The notes under the pieces are model-generated. The model was not told the origin of the DNA and made no database searches. It saw only the letters and a program-made list of their open reading frames with translations. The translations under genes and the position numbers were made by a program. Shown piece by piece: positions 3,001 through 51,323 of a stretch of 51,323 nucleotides of DNA. This stretch comes from Nitrospirota bacterium (GTDB lineage: Bacteria; Nitrospirota; Nitrospiria; 2-01-FULL-66-17). Each line of letters opens with the position of its first letter. Position 1 is the first letter of the stretch. The DNA is taken from positions 1 to 51,323 of the forward strand of contig JBFLXB010000027.1 of the NCBI GenBank assembly GCA_040757335.1, given 5' to 3'.

Positions 3001-6000
3001 CCTCGCGGGGTGCGACCGACACAATCGTGCAACCCGCAGCCGTGACCAATGCGAGCGGGCAGACCACCGGGACCGTGCGCTCGAGCACGGCGGGGACCGC
3101 GACGCTGACCGCGACCGATACCACGGATGGGATCACGCTGACGCAGACCGCCGCCGTGACGTTTACGGCGGGGGCGGTGTCGGCAACCGTCTCGAGCGTG
3201 GTGGCGGCGCCGGGCACGGTGACAGCGGACGGGGTGGCGACGGCGACCATCACGGTGACGTTGCGGGATGCGAACAACAACCCGGTGGCGGGCAAGAGCG
3301 TGAGCCTGGCGTCGTCCCGGGGCGCGACCGACACGATCACGCAGCCCACGGCGGTGACCGACGCGAGCGGGCAGACCACCGGGACCGTGCGCTCGAGCAC
3401 GGCGGGGACGGCGACGCTGACCGCGACCGATACCACGGATACCATTACCATCACGCAAACCGCCACCGTGACGTTTACGGTGGGGGCAGTCTCCGCGACG
3501 ACCTCGACCGTGAGTGCGAGCCCGGCGACGGTCACCGCGGACGGGGTGGCGACCTCGACGATCACGGTGACGCTGCGGGATGCGAACAACAACCCGGTGG
3601 CGGGCAAGAGCGTGACCCTCGCGTCGTCCCGGGGCGCGACCGACACGATCGGGCAGCCGGCGACGGTCACGGATGCCAATGGGCAGACCACCGGGACCGT
3701 GCGTTCGAGCACGGCAGGCACGAGTACGATGACCGCGATCGATACCAGCGATGCGATCACGCTCACGCAGACCGCGGCCGTGACGTTTACGGCCGGGGCG
3801 GTGTCGGCGACCGTTTCGAGCGCGGTGGCGGCGCCGGGCACCGTGACGGCGGACGGAGTGGCGACGTCCACGATCACGGTGACGTTGCGGGACGCCAATG
3901 GCAACCCGGTCAGCGGCAAGAGCGTGACCTTGGCCTCCTCGCGGGGCGCGACCGATACGATCACGCAGCCCACGGCGGTGACCGACGCGAGCGGGCAGAC
4001 CACCGGGACCGTGCGCTCGACCACGGCGGGGACCGCAACGCTGACCGCGACCGATACCACGGATACGATTACCCTCACGCCCACGGCTTCGGTGACGTTT
4101 GCGACCGGGGCGGTCTCCGCGACCACTTCCACGGTGACGGCCAGCCCCCCCACGGTGGTGGCGGACGGCACGACCACGGCGACGATTACGGTGACCCTGC
4201 GCGATGCCAACAACAACCCAGTGAGCGGGAAGACGGTGACCTTGGCCTCCTCGCGGGGCGCGACGGATACCATTGTGCAGCCCGCGACCGCGACCGACGC
4301 GAACGGGCAGACCACGGGGACGGTGCGCTCCACCACAGCGGGGAGCAGCACGCTGACCGCGACCGATACCACCGATACGATCACGCTGACGCAAACCGCG
4401 GGCGTGACGTTCACGGTAGGGGCGGTGTCGGCCGCCACGTCCTTGGTGACGGCGAGCCCGAGCACGGTGGTGGCGGACGGGACGACCACGGCGACGATCA
4501 CCGTGACGCTGCGCGATGCGAACAACAACCCGGTAAGCGGCAAGACCGTGACGCTGGCCTCCTCGCGCGGGGCGACGGACACGGTGGTGCAGCCGGCCAC
4601 GGCGACCGACGCGAGCGGGCAGACGACCGGGACCGTACGGTCCACCACGACGGGGACGAGCACGCTCACCGCCACGGATACCACCGACTCCATCGTCGTC
4701 ACCCAGACGGCAACGGTGACGTTCGCGGCAGCGGCTGCGGGCCACTTTGTGGTCAGCGCCAGCCCGACGACGCTGACCGCGGGTTCTCCCACGACCATCA
4801 CGATTACCGCCCACGACAGCAACCACAACATCGTGACCAGCTACGCCAACCCCAACGGGTTGACCCTCAGCCAGAACGGCACGGGGAGCGCCGCGCAGAT
4901 TGTCTGGGGTGGGGCAGGGGTGACGGATGGCGGGACCACCGGGACCCTGGCGGCGGGGAACTTCACCAACGGTGTGGCCACCGTGACGCTGGCGGATCAG
5001 CGAGCGGAAGGGCCGGTGACGATCACCGTGACGGATCCTGTGACCGGCGCGGCGGGGAACAGCAATGACAACGTGCATCCGCCCACGTCGAACGTGACAT
5101 GGGCGGCAGGCCCGGTGTCGGCAGCGCTCTCGACCGTCACCGCGAGCCCGACCACGGTGACGGCGGATGGCGTGGCGACTTCGACGATCACGGTCACCCT
5201 TCTCGACGCGTACAGCAACCCGGTCGGCGGCAAGGCGGTGACCCTCGCCTCCTCCCGGGGCGCGAGCGATACGATGACGCAGCCGTCGGCGGTTACCGGC
5301 TCCAACGGTGTGACGACGGGGACCGTGCGGTCGACCACCGCGGGCGCTAGCGTCATCACGGCGACCGATGCGGCCGACGGGATCGTGGTGACCCAGACCG
5401 CGACCGTCAACTTTGTCGCTCCCAATCCGCCGACCGGACTCCTGGCGACGGATCGCCCCGGCGACGCCGGGAACGCCATCGACTTGACCTGGGTCCCGTC
5501 GACGAGCTCGACCGCGACGAGTCAGCGGGTGTATCGGAGCCTGGCGAGCGGGGGGCCGTACACGCTCGTCACGAGCTTCACCAATAACACCACGTCGAGT
5601 TATACCGATGACAACGGCGGGACGGGCCTGACCAACGGGGTGACGTACTTCTACGTGGTGCGAGCGGCCAACAGCGCGGGGGTTGAGTCTGCCAATTCGA
5701 ACGTCGCCAGCGCGGTGCCGCTTGGGCCTCGCAAGCTCTCACAGGAGGGGCCGGACCAGCCGGCGACGACGATCACCAGCCCCGATCTGGTGGGACGATC
5801 CGGGGTGGTGGTCTTGTGGGAGCTCGAGACCCAGGTCGGTGACCCCAACGCCGCCCGGACCCTGGCCGCGGGCGCGACGTTCACGGTCATCCTCTACCAG
5901 CAGCGCACAGGAACCGACGGCACCCTAGTCCCATACGCCGCGGTGTACCGCAACACGCCGACCGCGTCCAACCTCATTTGCAGCGCGACCGGATCAACGC

Positions 6001-48551: not shown

Positions 48552-48917
48552 TTAGGCTTGATAGGGAATACGAATGCTCGGGTGGTCGGGAGGGAAGTCC
48601 CGGGTGTTGCGAGTGACAAGCAGGGCATCGTGGCTTCGAGCCGTCGCCCAGATGATCGCGTCGGGAAGCCGAAGGCGGTCGGTGCGTCGGATGTGCACGG
48701 CTTGATCCGCCACGGCCTGCGTGATGGGTAGGATTTCGAACCGACCGAGAAAACTTCGGAGGAGGCGGTCCTCGTCGTCGCTCTGAGCGCCGACCAAGAC
48801 CTCCATCCAGGTGATCACACTGATCGCTGGCGCCCGATAACGCTGCAGTTCGGCCCGTGCGGCCTCGACGCCGCGGAGATAGTCAACGAGGACGTTTGTA
48901 TCGATGACGGCGTTCAC
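48552..48917 (-). CDS. vapC: PIN-domain toxin, VapC type
   Basis: 121 residues. PIN-domain RNase with the four acidic residues at Asp6 (AVIDTNVLVDY), Glu39, Asp86 (RLPDAIIWA) and Asp107 (TRNTRDF). Typical length. Its start lies inside the end of the upstream antitoxin gene, a 35-bp overlap that is longer than usual for vapBC. Confidence 0.92.
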   Translation of the reverse strand: MNAVIDTNVLVDYLRGVEAARAELQRYRAPAISVITWMEVLVGAQSDDEDRLLRSFLGRFEILPITQAVADQAVHIRRTDRLRLPDAIIWATARSHDALLVTRNTRDFPPDHPSIRIPYQA

Positions 48918-49134
48918 TGACGACCCATTCCGCCCTCAGAGTGTCCTGGTATTCCAGACTATCGACATCGCGCGAGCGCCAGATGCCGAAGGCTTCTTCG
49001 CTGGGTGGCGCCTTCCGGCTCGTATACGCCTCAACCGCTCGCCGAATTGCCTCGGCGCGCGAGATCTTCTCTCGCAGGCAGATCTCCGAAAGCGCTTTCA
49101 GCGCCTTCTCAGACAGTTCAATGATCGTCCGCAT
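48883..49134 (-). CDS. vapB: Ribbon-helix-helix antitoxin, VapB type
   Basis: 83 residues from ATG 49134. N-terminal ribbon-helix-helix (RTIIELSEKALKALSEI, then 'REKISRAEAIRRAVEAY') binds DNA; the C-terminal tail wraps the toxin and contains 'FGIWRSRDVDSLEYQDTLRAEW' (read as FGIWRSRDVDS and YQDTLRAEW). The operon promoter is at 49141-49170 and the ATG is 6 bp from the -10 box. An upstream ATG at 49155 is inside the promoter spacer and cannot be used from it. Likely autoregulated. Confidence 0.88.
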   Translation of the reverse strand: MRTIIELSEKALKALSEICLREKISRAEAIRRAVEAYTSRKAPPSEEAFGIWRSRDVDSLEYQDTLRAEWVVSERRHRYKRPR

Positions 49135-49140
49135 GGCGTC

Positions 49141-49170
49141 ATCATATATCGTCATCAGATGTTAAGTCAA
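49141..49170 (-). promoter_or_regulatory. Leaderless promoter of vapBC
   Basis: On the minus strand TTGACT (49170-49165), 18-bp spacer, TATGAT (49146-49141). Six bases separate the -10 box from ATG 49134. The region 49141-49160 also holds ATGACGATATATGATGACG-like alternating bases that could be an operator. Confidence 0.65.
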
Positions 49171-50045: not shown

Positions 50046-50351
50046 TCCAAGCAGAGACAGGAAACGGGAAGCGTGGCATCAGTCGGATAGAGCACTTGCT
50101 TCACACTCGGCAGAACGCACCCTCCTCCACAGCACTCCAACTCAGGAAGCCCAACTCCGGCAAAGGGTTTTCCCTTTCCGGCAATTTTGGCCTGAGTAGG
50201 CCTGAATAGGCTGGAAAGCGGTGGGCGTGAGCACATTCCGAGCACAATTCGTTAGAATTCGCCTCCAAGACCCCTATACGCTGGAGACCGAACTTCGTTT
50301 CAGCCGCGGCGGCTCATTCTCTCGCTAGCCGCCGTCGGCTGCAAACGCTTG
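50046..50351. other. Intergenic boundary between the OMP gene and an integron-like cassette
   Basis: 306 bp without a credible gene. It holds a possible tRNA-Val(CAC)-like remnant (50080-50106), a terminator-like hairpin (50157-50181) and the attC-like site (50287-50357). Repeated GGCCTGA/TAGGCC motifs occur at about 50188-50211. Confidence 0.6.
50157..50188 (+). terminator. Terminator-like hairpin after the OMP gene
   Basis: CCGG (50157-50160) and AAAGGG (50162-50167) pair with CCCTTT (50172-50177) and CCGG (50178-50181) across a TTTT loop with one bulged C, followed by CAATTTT. Confidence 0.55.
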
Positions 50352-50357
50352 TTACCC
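50287..50357 (-). mobile_element. attC-like recombination site (59-base element)
   Basis: Read on the minus strand: outer boxes GGGTAAC (50357-50351) and GTTCGGT (50293-50287); inner arms 50347-50328 and 50313-50296 are complementary. The stem is 5 bp (CGTTT/AAACG), an unpaired G, 6 bp (CAGCCG/CGGCTG), an unpaired A, then 7 bp (CGGCGGC/GCCGCCG), with a 14-base terminal loop. Two unpaired bases on one arm, 6 bp apart, are the hallmark of integron attC sites and the layout matches what I recall of the aadA attC. AAC and GTT of the boxes also pair. The kinase stop TAA lies inside the first box, as in many gene cassettes. The outer boxes differ from the RYYYAAC/GTTRRRY consensus. Confidence 0.75.
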
Positions 50358-51287
50358 CGCACCTGGTGCTGTCGCGTTAGGAAGACCGGGTGGGGACTGC
50401 AAGTCTCTCCAAAGTTCCTCTGCGCTGCCCGCCCGGAACGCGGCGTGTCGGCGGAGGGCCTTTTCTAGCGCGAAGTTCAGAGGAGGCGACAATTGCAGCG
50501 CCATCTCACGAGGACGGCCAGCGAGAATCTCCTCTCGGGTGAATCGGAGTTCCTTGCTGTGCGCAAGCTGTAGAAACAACAGGCCGAGGTGATAGATGTC
50601 GATTCGGTGGTCGAGCGGACCGTACTCCTCGGGATCGAGAGCCTCTGGTGGGCGCATCCACTCGGCCAGAGTATTCGCCGCGTCCAGTTCTCCAAACACC
50701 TTGCTGACACCCAAGTCGCCGAGCTTAAAGTTAATTGCCCCAGGATTCGCGGCACTCATTTCGTCTCGCGCAAACGCCGCGAAGACGTTGTTGAGGTGAA
50801 TGTCCTGATGGGCATACTGGTTCACATGGAGATACTGGACTGCCTGTAAGAGACAACGGGCTATTGGCATGATCCAGACTGAGCCATCGAATTTGTCTAG
50901 GGTAAAGAGCTGAGTGAGTGGACAATAGCAGCGCTCCGTAACTATGTAAAAGGTGTCACGGTACTCAAAGGCATCGTACACATAGGTGATGTGGGGGTGC
51001 CGCAGCAGCAAGAGGCGTTGGACCTCGGCCATCGTGGCCGCTTGGACTTCTTCGTACGAGCGCACCGGCTTCATCACCTTGACCGCAAGGTCATTGCGCC
51101 ATCTATCCGTGCACCCGAAGACGAGCCCGAAGGAACCCTCACCGATGCTCTCGCCCATGGTGTAGGTCGTTCCCGTCGCGAGGCTCGTTATTACTTCGCC
51201 TGGACTCGGAGGAATGACGCTCTTTACAGGGGGCGGAACGGGAGGGAGTTGGTCGTTACTCACGTGCTTTACCTTTGTGCAGCCGAA
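50293..51287 (-). mobile_element. Putative integron gene cassette carrying a kinase gene
   Basis: The interval is bounded on the minus strand by GTTCGGC (51288-51282) upstream and GTTCGGT (50293-50287) downstream, matching R' boxes in which integrase would cut after the first G. It contains one ORF and ends with an attC-like hairpin. Only part of the upstream site fits in the window (51282-51323), so that site is less certain. Codon and base composition are poorer in GC than the neighbouring genes. Confidence 0.6.
50352..51263 (-). CDS. Ser/Thr protein kinase-like protein in a cassette
   Basis: 303 residues, Hanks-type kinase fold. Gly-rich loop GEGSFG (41-46), ATP-anchoring Lys62 in LAVKVM, helix-C Glu80, catalytic loop HQDIHLNN (152-159: Asp154 and Asn159 kept, the usual Lys two residues after Asp is His), and metal loop GDLG (182-185) in place of DFG. 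A Pro-rich N-terminus (about 1-20) and no transmembrane segment, so it is soluble and unlike membrane PASTA kinases. Catalysis is plausible but modified. No phosphatase or obvious substrate is adjacent. Stop codon lies in the attC-like site. Confidence 0.85.
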   Translation of the reverse strand: MSNDQLPPVPPPVKSVIPPSPGEVITSLATGTTYTMGESIGEGSFGLVFGCTDRWRNDLAVKVMKPVRSYEEVQAATMAEVQRLLLLRHPHITYVYDAFEYRDTFYIVTERCYCPLTQLFTLDKFDGSVWIMPIARCLLQAVQYLHVNQYAHQDIHLNNVFAAFARDEMSAANPGAINFKLGDLGVSKVFGELDAANTLAEWMRPPEALDPEEYGPLDHRIDIYHLGLLFLQLAHSKELRFTREEILAGRPREMALQLSPPLNFALEKALRRHAAFRAGSAEELWRDLQSPPGLPNATAPGAG

Positions 51288-51323
51288 CGTTTGACATGAG
51301 CGACGGCCAACAGCGGGCTTCGC
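51282..51323 (-). mobile_element. Partial upstream attC-like boundary at the window edge
   Basis: On the minus strand the bases TCAAACGTTCGGCTGC end an element that continues past the right edge. The GTTCGGC box repeats that of the downstream site. Whether a full attC hairpin exists cannot be seen here. Confidence 0.35.

Follow-up and report, generated by a model that had tools for sequence, protein, structure and literature searches.

The closest described counterpart of the locus analysed here is the sedentary chromosomal integron, with which the genome shares an intact IntI scoring over the NCBI cut-off, an attI-like site, attC cassettes, and a cargo that includes a toxin–antitoxin pair and DUF genes. 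It differs from such integrons in being split over contigs, in carrying a second, deleted intI on contig C7, in having more than one attC sequence type, and in the mismatched ends of the unit that holds a protein kinase gene. Draft genomes break integrons at their repeats, as the IntegronFinder authors have pointed out (PMC9024848), and integrons have been presented as libraries of anti-phage functions (Darracq 2025; Getz 2025; Kieffer 2025; all as cited in PMC12444791). The cassette cargo of our window, by which we mean the whole 51,323-nt stretch of DNA that was analysed, resembles these libraries in its possible defence function; unlike them, it belongs to a different host lineage and any defence role is predicted from sequence. 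The window is the entire contig C27, and because this contig ends at 51323, the other attCs and the IntI lie on contigs other than that of the kinase. The system is a real chromosomal integron of a known kind, and the kinase is its last identifiable unit.

We searched for attCs with an arm-pairing scan and covariance models; the attC of this last unit lies at 50287-50357 on the minus strand, with R'' (GGGTAAC) at 50351-50357 and R' (GTTCGGT) at 50287-50293. From 50357 to 50287 the minus-strand letters are GGGTAAC-AAG-CGTTT-G-CAGCCG-A-CGGCGGC on one arm and GCCGCCG-CGGCTG-AAACG-AA-GTTCGGT on the other; the predicted stems leave a single unpaired G and a single unpaired A, 6 bp apart on the same arm, and the stop codon TAA of the kinase gene (50352-50354) falls within R''. 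Folding of the plus (bottom) strand, as the initial annotation had proposed, yielded -22.6 kcal/mol (z -5.6 vs shuffles), and the minus strand gave -22.7 kcal/mol (z -4.8). The attC architecture described in that annotation is upheld for the AAC/GTT core, the two unpaired bases and the stop codon in the first box, but the pairing of the outer boxes R'' and R' is restricted to AAC/GTT; the spacer before GTT is also 2 nt short of the covariance-model consensus. Given the core AAC/GTT, the extrahelical bases and the imperfect palindrome, we identify this stretch as an attC.

A GC-rich hairpin immediately after a stop codon could also be a transcription terminator, or a palindrome that arose by chance, and we consider either extremely improbable here. 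No T-run follows the hairpin, and its attC-specific bases, bulges and core agree with 25 other sites in the genome. Since the training set of our first covariance model (R1) already contained the site, a leave-one-out model (R2) was trained on 15 other sites from the same genome only; its top match in the whole 51-kb window was 50287-50357 on the minus strand, with 45.5 bits and an E value of 7.3e-9. The terminator reading was rejected on the lack of a T-run, and the leave-one-out model refutes it as far as sequence can. The site aligns with the attCs of contig C58, being 81% identical to C58:1119-1172 across 54 bases, and Rfam at its gathering threshold gave no match on C58 or at the end of C27.

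At the other end of the kinase unit, the GTTCGGC box that had been noted upstream of the gene is present at 51282-51288 (minus strand, by direct reading), close to the GTG start at 51263, and represents the 5' core box with which the unit begins. The stretch from this box to the last base (51282-51323, minus strand) gives a truncated model match as the 3' half of a preceding site, with 15.2-15.5 bits and rank 3 in the window; its E value of 0.12 is weak alone, but the half site occupies precisely the position required of the preceding attC. At 51323 the contig edge looks like a cut through that attC. Covariance-model scans of the remainder of the window beyond 50287 found nothing attC-like. 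Where the chromosomal flank of the array begins, a VapC-like PIN-domain toxin is encoded together with a ribbon-helix-helix partner (48552-49155, minus strand).

The initial annotation had suggested looking for more attC sites and an integrase past the right edge, and both are present in the same genome. Model R1 counts 26 attCs in total, nearly all of them clustered and same-stranded: six on the 3.9-kb contig C58, three beside intI on C33, eight at the two ends of C7, four on C56, four (one weak) on C1 and the one on C27, so that 25 accompany the site of the window. The C1 sites are detached, one standing alone at C1:23648-23705 and others clustered at C1:364385-366326. IntI (TIGR02249) is encoded at C33:2152-3102 with 434 bits against an NCBI cut-off of 265, in an intact open frame of 333 aa from a likely ATG, and the cassettes extend from it toward and off the left edge of the contig. 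A second integron integrase copy at C7:4993-5363, in pieces 82-89% identical to the C33 IntI, has lost a large internal part and is frameshifted, and adjoins its own attI-like site and four cassettes with long attCs (93-94 nt). The attI-like sequence CAAGTCAATCAATGGTT, recognised from sequence only, is conserved immediately ahead of both intI genes and runs into the first cassette, the shared sequence ending in ..CAATCAATGGTT. By Pfam, the cargo of C58 comprises an Unstab_antitox/ParE-toxin pair carried as a cassette (C58 592-1107, locus L004), two DUF4304 cassettes and one DUF1877 cassette. Reading of C56 (locus L025) indicated a further toxin–antitoxin pair carried as a cassette at 3177-3620.

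With a half attC at its edge, 25 other attCs in the genome and an intact intI with an attI-like site, the right end of C27 is very probably the end, distal to the integrase, of a chromosomal integron that was split at its repeated attCs. Assembly would have broken the array at these repeats, leaving intI, attI and the first cassettes on C33, nothing but cassettes on C58 and perhaps on C56, and the distal end on C27; the four contigs are consistent with such a break. No contig joins C27 to intI and the contigs are not joinable, so the linkage to the C33 integrase is inferred. C27 might instead be a detached remnant, a lone attC or CALIN without an integrase of its own, in which the kinase is stranded cargo, rather than the end of the C33 integron. 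We hold this to be a fairly unlikely alternative: the genome does contain other detached attCs, such as those on C1, and the attCs of C33 differ in sequence type from those of C27 and C58, but C27 breaks off within an attC-like half site, which is what a break in an array should give, and the attC of C27 is nearest to those of C58, a contig made up of cassettes only.

The unit at this probable array end encodes a Hanks-type protein kinase of 303 aa (50352-51263, minus strand), as had been proposed from its HQDIH loop and DLG motif. Sequence matches in Pfam (99.8 bits to Pkinase, PF00069) and the PDB leave no doubt about the fold, and the GTG start is backed by homology to the relative at locus L045. 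In the family alignment the protein has the G-loop, the VAVK Lys, the C-helix Glu, the catalytic Asp and Asn, DLG, PPE and the subdomain IX Asp. The canonical HRDxKxxN is absent; in its place stands HQDIHxxN (HQDIHLNN in the window protein), which retains the Asp and Asn and is conserved across close relatives. With K, E, D, N and D all present, the product is predicted to be an active, soluble Ser/Thr kinase. Its low GC had been taken as support for transfer: the GC content of the open reading frame (57.8%) is indeed below the window mean (65.1%), but the signal is mild, about 5% of equal-sized windows being as low.

An intact cassette opens with 7 nt (GTTRRRY) that are complementary to its own R''. 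This comparison of the start box with R'' provides a simple sequence check that tells intact cassettes from composites in an array. Among the 20 other units in the genome, 17 match at 7/7 (12.6% when starts are re-paired with the ends of other units), two at 6/7 and one, on C56, at 4/7. The start of the kinase unit, GTTCGGC, matches its R'' GGGTAAC at 4/7, three of these being the fixed AAC. Since its start and R'' boxes do not match, the unit is probably a composite or has decayed, and would not be a mobile cassette of the clean sort. The earlier proposal of a terminal cassette is therefore retained for the position at the array end, where no attC follows past 50287 and the cassettes of C33 leave the left edge of their contig, but not for the clean cassette it had implied. 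We suggest that the kinase gene would have been captured as a cassette by IntI recombining the folded bottom strand (the plus strand of the window) at G^TT, that deletion or decay then fused it to the attC of another cassette, and that the resulting unit, with its non-matching ends, would be excised poorly. The 4/7 unit on C56 (2056-3110, locus L025), which on reading seemingly carries a truncated transposase, may illustrate the way in which composite units come about.

The same mismatch of end boxes would be found if the kinase were an ordinary resident or laterally transferred gene that happens to lie beside an attC, with GTTCGGC at its 5' side by chance, and the relatives of the kinase do sit outside attC arrays. 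We nevertheless think this quite unlikely. The stop codon lies within R'', a half attC lies upstream, two relative-bearing genomes also carry attCs and integrase-like fragments, and the GTT box is the point from which the window, L045 and genome G297 are homologous (GTTCGGCTGCACA, GTTAGGCTGGCACA and GTTGGGCTGCACA, respectively). Because the homology begins there, the box may well be an old cassette start. One of these two genomes, the gammaproteobacterial MAG USCg_Taylor, has nine sites resembling attC. It also has fragments of an integrase (L087, G348:C214, 341-665; two frames, in-frame stop) whose 74-81% identity to the C33 IntI suggests that the integron lineage is shared. In the other, G297, a single good attC and an integrase-like piece each lie at the edge of a contig.

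The kinase in the window belongs to a patchy family, with 45-76% identity to proteins from Planctomycetota, Acidobacteriota and Gammaproteobacteria MAGs. Those at 59-76% come from one Planctomycetota MAG, two Acidobacteriota MAGs and USCg_Taylor, where the gene is disrupted; two relatives were found within the phylum of the window itself. The family is rare, occurring in 3/346, 6/396, 1/398 and 3/392 genomes of four phylum samples, each count including the central genome of its sample and the cut-off being E 1e-40 in the first sample and 1e-60 in the other three. No viral contig was found to carry the kinase, and plasmids gave a single distant match (30%). None of the relatives checked has an attC within the flanks examined, so the spread of the kinase need not be via integrons. 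One candidate attC, TCCTAAC...GTTGGGC, lies upstream of the kinase in G297 and has the stop of the upstream gene in its first box; it was rejected because it folds no better than shuffles (z about -0.1 to -0.3) and matches no model.

Since integron cargo is now screened as an anti-phage reservoir (papers cited in PMC12444791), the window kinase is a concrete candidate. Among PADLOC models mad6 scores best (94.5 bits), followed by PD-T4-6 (61 bits, E 4e-17); the protein shares a kinase-domain match over residues 33-234 with the MADS kinase mad6 and over residues 31-290 with PD-T4-6, a single-gene anti-phage Ser/Thr kinase, and differs from both as a kinase-only protein of 303 aa with the HQDIHxxN loop. 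It lies below the NCBIfam MAD6 equivalog cut-off (46.4 of 460 bits). From sequence leads of this kind, a role as an anti-phage or stress kinase is possible rather than probable. On such weak leads its most likely use would be single-gene stress or anti-phage signalling, and the gene would be transcribed only when read-through, or transcription from the promoter of an upstream cassette, extends as far as the array end. It is a speculative and rather doubtful proposal that the kinase represents a previously undescribed kinase-only family, marked by the HQDIHxxN loop, of stand-alone anti-phage (or toxin-like) kinases that cross phyla as integron cargo and may become fixed at an array end once joined to a foreign attC. 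A Hanks-type kinase is added to the genes that chromosomal integrons may carry, and this in a lineage in which IntI above the cut-off was present in 31 of 270 sampled genomes of the host class (about 11%). In a paper that deals with integrons, attC and a threonine protein kinase, the kinase gene is tabulated outside the super-integron range.

No recognised defence neighbours were found at the other relatives, and G734 is the only one among defence genes, with ImmA/IrrE-like and DUF4411 genes to one side and a restriction-modification pair of type III to the other. A pair of DUF4160 and DUF2442 genes adjoins the kinase in two unrelated genomes (L043 7190-7660 and L045 8731-9294), and at L045 the short repeat ACAGACCACGAT lies on both sides of this pair.
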